Below the pieces are notes generated by a model. That model made no database searches. It worked only from the letters and a program-made list of their open reading frames with translations, and was not told the origin of the DNA. Of a stretch of DNA of 38,083 nucleotides, positions 2,930-26,684 are shown piece by piece. Positions within the stretch are counted from its first letter, which is position 1; each line of letters begins with the position of its first letter. Location: contig JAUHYO010000003.1 of NCBI GenBank assembly GCA_030426325.1, forward strand, positions 1 through 38,083. The letters are read 5' to 3'. Source of the DNA: Gammaproteobacteria bacterium. Its GTDB lineage: Bacteria > Pseudomonadota > Gammaproteobacteria > Steroidobacterales > Woeseiaceae. The position numbers and the translations under genes were made by a program.

Positions 2930-3058
2930 TTTCCCTGAGTGCATTAGTCACTCGCCTGTTTACCTCCCTAAACAGGCGTGCATGCGGTTTCCCCAAGCCG
3001 CCTGCTTCTCCTGGCCCCGGGGTAGCGACAGACATCGTTACTCCGGGGTTGTTTTTTT
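2930..3058 (+). ncRNA. Candidate trans-acting sRNA in the polA-engB intergenic region (Spot 42/ErsA locus), C-rich loops
   Basis: SL1 2953-2978 CGCCTGTTTA-CCTCCC-TAAACAGGCG (perfect 10 bp). SL2 2980-3005 GCAtGCGGTTT-CCCC-AAGCCGCcTGC (one mismatch, one G-U). Terminator hairpin 3015-3048 with T-rich tract 3049-3058. The 5' end is not resolved. Confidence 0.55.
3015..3058 (+). terminator. Rho-independent terminator
   Basis: CCCCGGGGTAGCGA-CAGACA-TCGTTACTCCGGGG followed by TTGTTTTTTT; 14-bp stem with two G-U pairs. Confidence 0.85.
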
Positions 3059-3649
3059 CCGCAAGGATTTCGTTAGAAATTCATCGAGACGGGCGCGGGC
3101 CTCGTCCTCGCCAGCACGCGTCAGCGCCGAGAACTGCTGCACAGTCGCGATACCCCGCAACTCGCGCCGGACGTTGAGCATCGCCGTAGCGGCCTGGCCG
3201 CGCTTGAGCTTGTCCGCTTTCGTCAGCAATACGTGCGTCGGGAGCGCTACCAACTCGGCGAATCCCAGCATTTGCGTGTCAAATGCCGTGATCTCTCGAC
3301 GTATGTCGACGATAAGAAACAGACCGGCCAGGCTTTTCCTCGACTCGAAATAGTTCGCCATCAGGTCGCGCCAATGCGCCTGCATCCGGGTGGAGACTTT
3401 GGCGAAGCCGTAGCCCGGCAAATCAACCAGCCGCTCGCCGTCCCGCAGCCCGAAGAAATTGACCAGCTGCGTCCGGCCCGGGGTTTTGCTGGTGCGCGCG
3501 AACTGCCGCCGGTTGACAATAATATTGATTGCGCTGGACTTGCCGGCATTCGAACGCCCGGCAACCGCCACCTCGGCGCCATCATCGGCAACGAACTGGC
3601 TGGGCGCATTGGCGCTCTTGATGAAATGGGCTTCAGGGTACTGCGACAT
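3038..3649 (-). CDS. engB: Ribosome biogenesis GTP-binding protein YihA/YsxC
   Basis: MSQYPEAHFIKSANAPSQF... GRSNAGKSSAIN (G1), TPGRTQLVNFF, DLPGYGFAKV (G3), LLTKADKL (G4). Start placed at the internal Met; the listed ORF is over-extended. Confidence 0.95.
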   Translation of the reverse strand: MSQYPEAHFIKSANAPSQFVADDGAEVAVAGRSNAGKSSAINIIVNRRQFARTSKTPGRTQLVNFFGLRDGERLVDLPGYGFAKVSTRMQAHWRDLMANYFESRKSLAGLFLIVDIRREITAFDTQMLGFAELVALPTHVLLTKADKLKRGQAATAMLNVRRELRGIATVQQFSALTRAGEDEARARLDEFLTKSLRKKTTPE

Positions 3650-12974: not shown

Positions 12975-14030
12975 ATGACGGCCGAAGACCTGATAAATGA
13001 TCCCGGCTTTCTGGCGTACAAGCTTGATTTCGAAACGGAGAACGTAGAGTTTCTACCGGTCGACCGTGATGAAATACGCCAGGTCCCGAGCCTGAAACGG
13101 GGAAATTTCGATCCAGGCAAGAAATCTCACGCGGTGCCACTCGCCAAAATTGTGGACCTGCTGCAATCGCATGAACCCGAACAGTCCGGCAGCCCTCCAC
13201 AGTTTATTTTTCATACAGCCTACTGTGCATCGACGTTTCTTTCGCGTTGCCTCGATGTCGATGGCCTAAGCCTAAGCCTGCGCGAACCCCAATTAATCCT
13301 CGACGCCGCGAACGCGAAGCGGCTGCAGTGGCGTTCACGAACGACAAGCTTGGATTTCAGTCGCCTGCCCGACCTGGCTGTGAAGCTGCTGCGAAAGCAC
13401 GCTACGGGATCCGAGAAACTGATCATCAAACCCATCAATTGCGTCAACAACATAATTCCCGAGTTGTTACAGGCCAGCGGCGCAACCCGCTCGCTGATGC
13501 TGTTTACCGATGTACGTAATTTCGCGCTGTCATCGCTAAGGAAAGGCGAAGGTGGCAAACAGACTGTCCGCTCGATGTTCGACTTGTTGCGCTGTGATTT
13601 TCCTCACCTCGCCAACCTGCAGTTAACACATACAATTCATATGACTGACCTGAGAATCATCATGACCCTGTGGCGATTGCAGATCGAGCAGGCGAAAGTG
13701 GCGCTTCAGGAATTCGCCGCTCGCAAAGAGATGGCGTCCCTGTACGGCGAGAACCTCATCCATCAGCCCCTGGAAGCACTGCAAGTGGTCAACGAGTATT
13801 TGCAGATTGGCCTTTCATCGCAGCAACTCACGGACATTGTCGGCAGTGACGCCCGTTTTACCGACGCGAAAAACGCGGGCCAGCGATTCAGCCTTGAGCA
13901 GCGCGAGGAACGCTACCGGAAACTCGAAGAGTACTTCGGTCGTGATCTGGATGACGGGCTCGAGTGGTTGCTTCGAAACAACCCCGGCACACAATTACGT
14001 CCTGAACTGCAGGGTGAACTCTTGAGCTGA
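12975..14030 (+). CDS. Sulfotransferase-like protein (short, non-TPR family)
   Basis: PPQFIFHTAYCASTFLSRCL aligns by eye with the sulfotransferase P-loop of the 19515-20567 gene (PPSYIFHVGHCGSTLLSRLL). Starts 6 nt after the upstream stop. Confidence 0.65.
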   Translation: MTAEDLINDPGFLAYKLDFETENVEFLPVDRDEIRQVPSLKRGNFDPGKKSHAVPLAKIVDLLQSHEPEQSGSPPQFIFHTAYCASTFLSRCLDVDGLSLSLREPQLILDAANAKRLQWRSRTTSLDFSRLPDLAVKLLRKHATGSEKLIIKPINCVNNIIPELLQASGATRSLMLFTDVRNFALSSLRKGEGGKQTVRSMFDLLRCDFPHLANLQLTHTIHMTDLRIIMTLWRLQIEQAKVALQEFAARKEMASLYGENLIHQPLEALQVVNEYLQIGLSSQQLTDIVGSDARFTDAKNAGQRFSLEQREERYRKLEEYFGRDLDDGLEWLLRNNPGTQLRPELQGELLS

Positions 14031-22930: not shown

Positions 22931-24166
22931 ATGATCAAGAATAAACTTTCCCTTGCTCTCGCATGGTGTGGACTCCTGCTGGGCTCCGTTTCGGTAAACG
23001 CCGCCGAATTGGACGTTCCCGAACCCTTCCGGGGCTTTGACAACACGTCAACCTACAAGATTAGCTACGATGATCTGACAGCAGTATTGAAGGCGGTGGT
23101 TGTCGATGTGGGTCGCTCAACCCGGGAGGTTGCCGGGCAGGCTGAAGTCAAGACCGGGACGCGCGCACGTGCCAAGGTAAAACGCCTCACAGCCAACGAA
23201 GGCAACAAGTTTTACTACGAAACATTCAAGGACAATGAAGCCAGTCGCCAGTATCTTCAAAAAATACAGGCGGAACTGGAAGCTCTGCCTACAGAAGCAC
23301 CGCTGAAGTATTTTTCGCGTGACGAGCAGCTCGCCTACTGGCTCAATCTCTACAATGTCACGCTGCTGAACCAGATCATCGCCGAGTATCCGAAACGCGA
23401 CTTGAAAAAGCTGTTTCGTGCCAAGGACTCCATCCTGGACAGGAAGCTGCTCACGGTTGCCGGAATCCCGCTGAGCCTGAATGACATCCAGTTCACGATC
23501 CTGAAAGAAAACTATGACAGCAACCCGCTGATTCTGTACGGCCTGTACCAGGGCTATGTTGGTGGTCCCGATATTCGTAAGACCGCCTACACCAGCGCCG
23601 ATGTCTATTACGCGCTGGAAAACAACGCGCGGGACTTCATCAACTCCAATCGCGGCACCTTTAGCCGGGACGCGCGAACCTTCCGCGTTTCAAGCTTCTA
23701 CGATCGCAACCGGGCATTTTTTCCGAATTTCGAGACCGATCTGACCGCACACCTGATGCACTACCTGGAAGGCAGCGAGCGCGGCGAACTGCAGGCCGCA
23801 AGTTCACTGAAGCCGGATATTCATGACTGGACCGTCACCGATATGGGTGGCACCCACAGGGACACCGGTGGCAGCCTGGCCGACAGCCGTGCGGCCCTGC
23901 TGGGATCAATGCAAAGCACAACACCGGATCCAAACAACCCCGGACAACTTTTGGGCGCGACGGTTGGCTCCGGATCCAGCTACGCTGCAGCAAAAGGACA
24001 GAAGCTGACACGATATGACCCTGAACTGCTGATCAAGCTTCAGACAATCAACGAGAACCGCATGAATGAGAATCAGCGCAACGCCAATGTCACGATTGAG
24101 GAACTCGAAGACGATGCGGAAGCATCGGACAGTGCACCTGCACCGGAAAGCGACGACAACAACTAG
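22931..24166 (+). CDS. DUF547 domain-containing exported protein, copy 1
   Basis: Signal peptide; DUF547 core EQLAYWLNLYNVTLLNQIIAEYPKRDLKKLF; acidic C-terminus. Confidence 0.9.
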   Translation: MIKNKLSLALAWCGLLLGSVSVNAAELDVPEPFRGFDNTSTYKISYDDLTAVLKAVVVDVGRSTREVAGQAEVKTGTRARAKVKRLTANEGNKFYYETFKDNEASRQYLQKIQAELEALPTEAPLKYFSRDEQLAYWLNLYNVTLLNQIIAEYPKRDLKKLFRAKDSILDRKLLTVAGIPLSLNDIQFTILKENYDSNPLILYGLYQGYVGGPDIRKTAYTSADVYYALENNARDFINSNRGTFSRDARTFRVSSFYDRNRAFFPNFETDLTAHLMHYLEGSERGELQAASSLKPDIHDWTVTDMGGTHRDTGGSLADSRAALLGSMQSTTPDPNNPGQLLGATVGSGSSYAAAKGQKLTRYDPELLIKLQTINENRMNENQRNANVTIEELEDDAEASDSAPAPESDDNN

Positions 24167-24197
24167 ACCTATAGAAAATCAAGTCGGGGGAGAAGCA

Positions 24198-25382
24198 ATG
24201 AAGAAGATATATTCGTCGGTAGTTCTGATCGGTCTCGCGATGCTCGGCAATGTGGCGGCCAGCGCTGCCGAGTCGAGCGTTCCCGAGCCCTTCCGGGGAT
24301 TCGACAATACCTCCAAGTATTCGATCAACTATGACGACCTGACCGGTTTGCTGAAGGCGGTGGTTGTCGATGTCGGCCGGTCGAGCCGGGAAATTGCCGA
24401 ACCACCGAAGACCAAGACTGGAACGCGTACACGCGCCAAGGTAAAGCGGCTCACTGCCAATGAAGGCAACAAGTTCTACTACGAAACGTTCAAAGACAGT
24501 GAAGAAAGCGCAGAGTACCTGCGCGGCATTCAGGAGAATCTCGCACAGCTGCCGTCCGAGGCGCCGCTGAAATATTTCTCGCGTGACGAACAACTGGCCT
24601 ACTGGCTCAATCTCTACAATGTCACATTATTGAATCAAATCATCGCGGAATATCCGAAACGCGACTTGAAGAAACTGTTTCGCGGAAAGAATTCAATTCT
24701 CGACAAGAAATTGCTCACGGTCGCGGGCATCCCACTGAGCCTGAACGACATTCAGTTTACGATCCTGAAAGAAAACTACGACACTAGCCCGCTGGTTCTG
24801 TACGGCCTGTACCAGGGCTACGTCGGCGGGCCGGATATTCGCAAGACCGCCTACACCGGCGCGGACGTCTATTACGCCCTGGAAAACAATGCCCGGGATT
24901 TCATCAACTCGAACCGCGGTACTTTCAGCCGGGACGAAAGAACATTCCGGGTGTCGAGCTTTTACGACCGCAACCGGGCGTTTTTCCCGAATTTCGAAGC
25001 CGACCTGACTGCGCACCTGATGATGTACCTTGAAGGCTACGAACGGAATGAGCTGCAGGCGGCGAGTTCATTGAAGCCGGACATTGACGACTGGACAGTC
25101 ACCGACATGGGCGGCACTCACCGGGAGATCGGCGGTAGCCTGGCCGACAGCCGGGCAGCGTTGCTGGATTCAGTTAAAGGCACGACACCCGCGGATGGTG
25201 GCGGCGTCATGGCGGCCGCAGCCGGCTACGGCTCGACTTCGATGGCGGCAAAAGGCAAGAAAATCAGCCGTCTCGATCCCGAGTTGCTCGAGAAACTGGT
25301 CAAGATCGACGAGGATCGCATGAACGAAAACCAGCGAAATGCCAGCGTCACGATTGAAGATGTGGAGGACGATGACGAATAG
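24198..25382 (+). CDS. DUF547 domain-containing exported protein, copy 2
   Basis: Signal peptide MKKIYSSVVLIGLAMLGNVAASA; very high identity to copy 1 (41-aa identical run from APLKYFSRDEQ to KKLFR). Confidence 0.9.
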   Translation: MKKIYSSVVLIGLAMLGNVAASAAESSVPEPFRGFDNTSKYSINYDDLTGLLKAVVVDVGRSSREIAEPPKTKTGTRTRAKVKRLTANEGNKFYYETFKDSEESAEYLRGIQENLAQLPSEAPLKYFSRDEQLAYWLNLYNVTLLNQIIAEYPKRDLKKLFRGKNSILDKKLLTVAGIPLSLNDIQFTILKENYDTSPLVLYGLYQGYVGGPDIRKTAYTGADVYYALENNARDFINSNRGTFSRDERTFRVSSFYDRNRAFFPNFEADLTAHLMMYLEGYERNELQAASSLKPDIDDWTVTDMGGTHREIGGSLADSRAALLDSVKGTTPADGGGVMAAAAGYGSTSMAAKGKKISRLDPELLEKLVKIDEDRMNENQRNASVTIEDVEDDDE

Positions 25383-25511
25383 ACCATTAAATTCAGTCGC
25401 TTAAATCCTCATGGAACTCTACGTGGCGATCTGCATCTAAAATTTGAGTACAAAGAGCCACTCGCCGGCTTGGCGCTCGAAAACGGCGAGCAATGTGTCG
25501 GGGGAGTGCGC

Positions 25512-26684
25512 ATGATGAAGCAGGTCAGACCAGCTATTTTCGTTCTTTTTGGGTTCTTTACCTCGCAGGCCTTTGCAAACGAGCCCGTTGTTCCGGAGCC
25601 CTTTCGCGGTTACAACAACGCGTCGAGCTACATGATCAATTACGACGACCTGACCGACTTACTGAGCACGGTCGTCGCCGACACCGGACTTTCCGACCGG
25701 GAGATTGCCAAGCCCCCCAAAGCCAAGACCGGCACCCGAATGAAACCGAAGGTGCAACGGCTGACCGTCGACGAGGGCAATCGATTCCTGTACGAAGCCT
25801 TCAAGGACAACGAGGCGAGCCAGCAGTATCTGCGCGACATCCAGGCGAGCCTGGAAAAGGTCCCGGACGACATACCGCTGGAAGAATTCTCACGCGAAGA
25901 ACAGCTTGCCTATTGGCTGAATCTCTACAATGTCACCGTCCTCAACGAAATAATCGCTGTCTATCCAAAGCGCAACCTGAAGAAACTGTTCCAGGGCAAA
26001 AACTCGATCCTGTCCAAGAAAGTGCTCACCGTGTCCGGCATTCCGCTAAGTCTCAACGATATTCAATTCACGATTTTGAAGCAGAACTACGACAGCAATC
26101 CGTTGATACTCTACGGCCTCTACCAGGGCTACGTCGGCAGCCCAAATATTCGCAAAACAGCCTATACAGGATCGGACGTGTACTTCGGACTCGAGGAAAA
26201 TGCCTACGAGTTTATTAATTCGAATCGCGGCACTTTCATTCGGAGTGACGAAGACACCTTCCGCGTATCGAGCTTCTATGACCGGAACCGGGCGTTTTTC
26301 CCCGACTTCGAACCGCAGTTGGCCGAGCATTTACTTGAGCACCTGGCCGAAGGGACAGAGCGATACAAGATCCAGACTGCGTCCGCGATTGAACCCGACA
26401 TCGACGACTGGACCGTCACCGACCTCGGTTATGGCCGACACGAGATCGCCGGGAGCTTCGCCTACAACCAGGCTGCAATGCTGGATGCCTACCAGGGTCC
26501 GCGGCGGCGGGATGGTGGAATTTTGGTGGCTTCCGTCGAGGTCAAGCGGGCGAAGAAGAAAGTCGAAGAAGAAGAGGACGACGTTACACTTGAGGACCTG
26601 GAAGAGTATCCGCTTGGGCAGGGTGCACGCCCCGAGGAAATCACGACCGGCGAAATTTCCGAGCTTCCGGAATCTGCGGAATAG
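25512..26684 (+). CDS. DUF547 domain-containing exported protein, copy 3
   Basis: Signal peptide MMKQVRPAIFVLFGFFTSQAFA; same domain organisation, more diverged, longer acidic tail. Confidence 0.9.
   Translation: MMKQVRPAIFVLFGFFTSQAFANEPVVPEPFRGYNNASSYMINYDDLTDLLSTVVADTGLSDREIAKPPKAKTGTRMKPKVQRLTVDEGNRFLYEAFKDNEASQQYLRDIQASLEKVPDDIPLEEFSREEQLAYWLNLYNVTVLNEIIAVYPKRNLKKLFQGKNSILSKKVLTVSGIPLSLNDIQFTILKQNYDSNPLILYGLYQGYVGSPNIRKTAYTGSDVYFGLEENAYEFINSNRGTFIRSDEDTFRVSSFYDRNRAFFPDFEPQLAEHLLEHLAEGTERYKIQTASAIEPDIDDWTVTDLGYGRHEIAGSFAYNQAAMLDAYQGPRRRDGGILVASVEVKRAKKKVEEEEDDVTLEDLEEYPLGQGARPEEITTGEISELPESAE

Follow-up and report, generated by a model that had tools for sequence, protein, structure and literature searches.

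The polA-engB interval

The window, i.e. the whole stretch of 38,083 nucleotides analysed here, carries polA at positions 145 to 2835 of the forward strand (equivalog model NF004397, 1230 bits) and engB/yihA, convergent with it, at 3038 to 3649 of the reverse strand (TIGR03598, 215 bits). The initial annotation had placed a candidate small RNA between these two genes, and the two equivalog models verify both neighbours. The RNA, predicted from its fold, from matches in relatives and from covariation, would span positions 2937 to 3058 of the forward strand (about 120 nt, the 5' end being placed from the promoter); it lies on the same strand as polA at a distance of about 100 nt, and its final 21 nt or so are antisense to the stop region of engB.

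Four hairpins make up the RNA, all on the forward strand. At the 5' end, SL0 (2937 to 2953, GAGTG/CACTC), which had been overlooked at first, has five pairs, all with double changes, and 93% of its cells are paired (n = 61 sequences). SL1 (2954 to 2977) displays the loop CCUCCC (2963 to 2968), complement of GGGAGG, on a covarying stem with 96% and 92% of cells paired. SL2 (2980 to 3005) carries the loop UUCCCCAA, with CCCC at 2991 to 2994, and eight pairs with double changes. SL3 (3013 to 3058) is an intrinsic terminator with its U tract: the terminator scan gives 17 pairs, a hairpin at 3013 to 3050 and a T tract at 3052 to 3058; its loop in the window, CAGACA, is not C-rich. The sequence thus agrees with the arrangement first described, two back-to-back hairpins with C-rich loops (CCTCCC and CCCC) followed by a terminator and a T tract. 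The folding energy of the region is -60 kcal/mol against -35.2 +/- 3.5 in dinucleotide shuffles (z = -7.05; none of 200 shuffles as good).

Conservation and covariation of the hairpins

The comparison drew on polA loci from 80 gammaproteobacteria, the nearest being Woeseiaceae MAGs 84-88% identical, and the same hairpin series is found 3' of polA in many of them. A plain MAFFT alignment misaligned the stems of distant members and was dropped; therefore covariance models and alignments fitted to them were used. The first model, R1, was built from four polA-locus RNAs (that of the window and those of L002, L004 and L005), with no Xanthomonadales and no Burkholderiales among them; the broad model, R2, from 62 sequences. 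On 598 kb of loci R1 gives 27 matches at E <= 1, about 24 of which fall within the polA-engB interval. Its false matches in gammaproteobacterial DNA reach about 20-23 bits at worst, and the noise floor of R1, set by 343 kb of E. coli DNA containing many known sRNAs, is at 9.3 bits, the highest score there.

Double changes occur in all 37 pairs, and 92% of cells pair among 61 distinct sequences. The covariation score for these sequences is 0.537, compared with 0.148 when shuffled and at most 0.08 with slid partners; fitting the alignment to the model works in favour of these figures, but the distance from the controls is nonetheless large. The stems of SL1 and SL2, for which compensatory changes had been proposed as a check, both covary. 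The loops are kept across members while the stems vary: CUCCC is present in the SL1 loop of 130 of the 143 unique members, CCC in the SL2 loop of 122 and CCC in the terminator loop of 91. Strong covariation, together with class-wide matches adjoining polA or engB, bears out the proposal of a locus-conserved sRNA with C-rich loops.

R2 matches about half of the Gammaproteobacteria genomes drawn evenly from the class (189/369). When 399 genomes of the phylum are searched, 32 of the class are matched and only three outside it, weakly; these three are all that the search offers towards the alpha-r7 sRNAs of Alphaproteobacteria, which are also polA-linked and have C-rich loops (PMC3771888). Placement was counted on the best 90 matches of the class that have flanking sequence: polA and/or engB adjoin 73 of them, 68 in the canonical orientation and five inverted, and the 17 that have neither neighbour are in part contig ends and in part dispersed copies.

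The placement varies in several ways. In L123, L124, L144, L148 and L168 the RNA is found in the polA-engB interval on the other strand, in the same direction as engB and pointing towards polA. Four matches (L196, L197, L198 and L200) have near-perfect sigmaE-type promoters but no polA or engB gene within 1.5 kb, and are dispersed members of the family. Tandem copies are found in L008 (5804-6175), in contig C33 of genome G171 (13149-13900, four matches) and in L087, L092, L093 and L106; a sigmaE-like motif precedes most of the tandem copies examined. In L003, a close Woeseiaceae relative, the RNA is missing 3' of polA, where unrelated sequence and then the contig end are found.

A sigmaE/AlgU-type promoter in register with the RNA

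Upstream of the RNA, positions 2902 to 2929 of the forward strand match exactly (11/11) a sigmaE/AlgU-type promoter motif, with the -35 element GGAACT at 2902-2907, a spacer of 17 nt and the -10 element TCTAA at 2925-2929; the motif ends 7 nt before SL0. Even with one mismatch allowed, only 0.28 such sites are expected in the window, and the exact motif occurs at only two sites in the whole 3.27-Mb genome, one of them that of the RNA. A scan of the region for sigma70 promoters found none. The stretch TTTCCC (2930-2935), counted by the initial annotation as an additional C-rich segment of the RNA, is indeed present, but it is probably promoter sequence since it lies after the -10 element and at or before the probable start of transcription (about 2935-2937).

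The motif was absent from the training of either covariance model. Among the members found by R1, 46 of 65 agree with GGAACT-N15..18-TCTAA in at least 9 of 11 positions, where shuffles give about 1.5; in the class as a whole, 57 of 90 members have it at this level with a spacing of 17 or 18 and 3-10 nt 5' of SL0, against 0.2 expected. Copies away from polA also have it in register. A close variant of the motif lies upstream of rpoE in four of five relatives. In the genome of the window itself, the assembly of which is 88% complete, no rpoE equivalog is found above the cut-off (best 87 bits, for a cut-off of 236); a sister genome has one rpoE, at a contig end. The register of the motif, its variant upstream of rpoE, and the similar motif of the Pseudomonas RNA ErsA, of which the transcription by sigma22/AlgU is established, favour control of a sigmaE type, which is the best reading of this promoter on sequence grounds.

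The second exact site in the window (25413-25440) precedes the second of two tandem genes for DUF547 (PF04784) exported proteins, at 24066-25382 and 25512-26684 (listed region 25470-26684). The 5' UTR of this second gene begins with a GAGT...ACTC hairpin that R1 matches at 20 bits. The match (25446-25544) was considered as a second copy of the RNA and rejected: it has no terminator and corresponds to the 5' UTR.

Kinship with anti-hemB and sX13

At the gathering threshold no Rfam family matches the window. A permissive search gives a single significant match, the Burkholderia anti-hemB RNA (RF02837; also Burkholderia RNA 7 or ncS04), at 32.1 bits and E = 5.3e-6, which is below the gathering score of 49.5 bits. 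The alignment spans the full model (1-81) and includes the CCUCCCU loop of SL1, SL2 and the GC-rich terminator. Conversely, 24 of the 30 best class-wide matches of the anti-hemB model adjoin polA and/or engB, and R1 matches all 30 loci brought in by that model; on Rfam-confirmed anti-hemB loci it scores 22.5 to 43.9 bits. The two RNAs share the order of the hairpins, the CCUCCCUGA loop, the terminator and the tail-to-tail arrangement with engB, which is adjacent in most anti-hemB loci as it is convergent with the RNA here, and most anti-hemB members also have a sigmaE-like motif upstream. They differ in their surroundings in a locus of Burkholderiaceae type (L253, 1501-1583), where the RNA is flanked by engB and hemB, faces engB and has no polA beside it. 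While the name anti-hemB implies an antisense role towards hemB, position and structure suggest instead an engB-convergent RNA of the family described here, so that the name may be misleading as to function. In Burkholderia, ncS04 is transcribed as a 105-nt RNA, is reported to bind Hfq and showed no induction under the stresses applied (PMC5688073).

The case of sX13, from Xanthomonadaceae, had been raised at the outset from its C-rich loops. Its Rfam model (RF02232) finds nothing in the window, even when E values of up to 10 are allowed, and those of ErsA (RF01719) and Spot 42 (RF00021) do not match at permissive settings, so that none of the three models initially named as a check recognises the RNA. 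The link with sX13 is nevertheless revealed by R1, which was not trained on Xanthomonadales and yet scores bona fide, Rfam-confirmed sX13 well above the E. coli floor, at 32.3 bits (E = 5.5e-7) and 21.4 bits (E = 3.7e-4). R1 also matches seven polA loci of Rhodanobacteraceae, one of which passes the Rfam gathering score for sX13. Like the RNA of the window, sX13 lies downstream of polA (PMC3771888) and has C-rich loops on stable stems and a terminator; all three of its loops, that of the terminator included, are C-rich, against two of three here. The promoter motif of bona fide sX13 is weak (CGAACC-N17-TGTTA, 7/11). As judged from model matches, sX13, anti-hemB and the RNA of the window are one family, because R1, trained on neither group, matches Rfam-confirmed loci of both, because the anti-hemB model leads back to polA and engB, and because of the placement in L253. 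Neither the anti-hemB link nor the promoter of sigmaE type had been foreseen in the initial annotation.

ErsA and Spot 42

ErsA (Pseudomon-1) resembles the RNA of the window by its location in the polA-engB interval (PMC8575079) and by its C-rich stretches. Its loci have the promoter TGAACT-N18-TCAGA, which agrees at 8 of 11 positions where the window agrees at 11, and its dependence on sigma22/AlgU for transcription is proven (PMC8395346; PMC8575079). Together with Hfq it represses oprD and algC (PMC8395346). It differs from the RNA here in having no CUCCC-bearing SL1, in its longer single-stranded middle and in its dependence on Hfq. R1 does not match ErsA, and R2 scores it at 24-26 bits, the level of unrelated matches in E. 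coli: in the 343-kb control DsrA reaches 23.5 bits and a site next to tRNA genes 21.7 bits. Spot 42 itself (spf) is hit by R2 exactly at the gene, at 20.8 bits, third among these control matches; R1 does not match it in the same 343 kb. Since unrelated E. coli matches score alike, R2 decides neither case. For ErsA, the shared interval and the similar promoter motif that supported the suggested link hold, and the model scores lie at the noise floor; homology by locus and promoter is plausible.

Three further polA-interval RNAs with C-rich hairpins are matched weakly to moderately by R2, in L029 (5697-5854; Pseudomonadales) at 30.3 bits, in L034 (Methylococcaceae) at 20.6 bits and in L061 (Cellvibrionales) at 20.8 bits; L029 and L034 also have GGAACTTTT upstream. 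These RNAs are possible intermediates towards ErsA.

Proposed function and alternative readings

We propose, with a probability of about three in four, that the RNA is a trans-acting envelope-stress sRNA transcribed from its own promoter, whose C-rich loops repress mRNAs with G-rich ribosome-binding sites, and that it belongs to a family including sX13 and anti-hemB. Under envelope stress, sigmaE would transcribe the RNA from its sigmaE/AlgU-type promoter; the transcript would end at its own terminator and fold into stable hairpins, SL1 presenting CCUCCCU, which resembles an anti-Shine-Dalgarno sequence, and SL2 presenting CCCC. By analogy with sX13 (PMC3771888), these loops would pair with a group of mRNAs at G-rich ribosome-binding sites (AGGGAGG, GGGG), and this pairing would lower the translation of the targets when the envelope is under stress. 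Repression by sX13 is independent of Hfq and relies on its C-rich loops together with G-rich motifs close to start codons; sX13 levels are higher at 37 C and under high salt (PMC3771888). Given this behavior, and the repression of oprD and algC by ErsA, envelope proteins may be expected among the targets.

AGGGAGG-N4-9-ATG precedes seven genes in the genome of the window, against two for the reversed pattern; counted as sites, there are seven in this genome and 17 in the sister genome, about twice the reversed control, numbers too small for a test. Some of the sites precede genes for lipoprotein-like or exported proteins. Orthologous CBS-domain genes of the two genomes (L206 and L220) have before the start codon the sequence AGGGAGG, exactly complementary to the SL1 loop, and are a candidate target.

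Other readings of the locus have to be weighed against this proposal. The RNA lies directly 3' of polA and has a terminator at its end, so that it might be seen as the mere 3' UTR and terminator of polA, the hairpins having no function of their own; we consider this highly improbable, given that the three further hairpins covary and their loops are conserved, that a dedicated promoter is present, and that relatives are found between engB and hemB without polA (L253), inverted (5/90) or away from both genes (17/90, some at contig ends). The common strand and the short distance would also suit an sRNA cut by RNase out of the polA mRNA, with no promoter of its own. Against such processing stands the exact GGAACT-N17-TCTAA motif just before SL0, in register in most relatives and in copies away from polA as well, which makes this origin improbable.

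It likewise seems scarcely credible that the RNA belongs to the Spot 42 family and serves carbon catabolite control. It shares with E. coli spf the polA-yihA interval, on which the suggested link was based; yet the Rfam Spot_42 model finds nothing, unrelated E. coli matches score at least as high as spf, no comparable in-register promoter motif lies upstream of spf, which has a different promoter, and Spot 42 moreover encodes SpfP. The interval is thus what the two RNAs have in common, with no relation of sequence or structure above the control. Another alternative concerns the action of the loops: rather than repressing mRNAs, they could titrate a protein or an RNA with G-rich loops. The repetition of similar C-motifs would also suit such a sponge, as would the tandem copies in L008 and the four matches in G171. 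On the other hand, repression by sX13 needs both its C-motifs and G-motifs in the target mRNAs (PMC3771888), and in SL1 the loop sequence is specifically CCUCCCU, the complement of an extended Shine-Dalgarno sequence; a decoy therefore seems unlikely to us. The repression of mRNAs by an envelope-stress sRNA remains the preferred reading.

At a larger scale, a single envelope-stress RNA may have occupied the polA-engB interval in the ancestor of the Gammaproteobacteria, betaproteobacteria included, and given rise to sX13, anti-hemB, ErsA and the RNAs described here; Spot 42 would then be a rewired descendant that has kept neither the sigmaE promoter nor the C-rich loops. We hold this scenario as a tentative one, rather unlikely in its entirety.

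Significance

The existence of polA-linked sRNAs with C-rich loops in distant bacteria was already remarked by the authors of the sX13 study, who asked whether more exist (PMC3771888); for the Gammaproteobacteria the answer is positive and class-wide. Among open-licence papers, we found none that joins sX13, ErsA and anti-hemB or names a common sigmaE promoter, and both the link at the family level and the shared promoter appear to be new. The Rfam families sX13 and anti-hemB, which share no clan, are now joined, with ErsA as a probable third, and a shared regulator is added to them through the sigmaE/AlgU-type promoter at a fixed distance. If this holds true, sX13 and anti-hemB merit a retest as envelope-stress RNAs. 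MicA and RybB are the Hfq-dependent solution to the reduction of membrane-protein synthesis under stress; loops resembling an anti-Shine-Dalgarno sequence would then be an ancient alternative to it.
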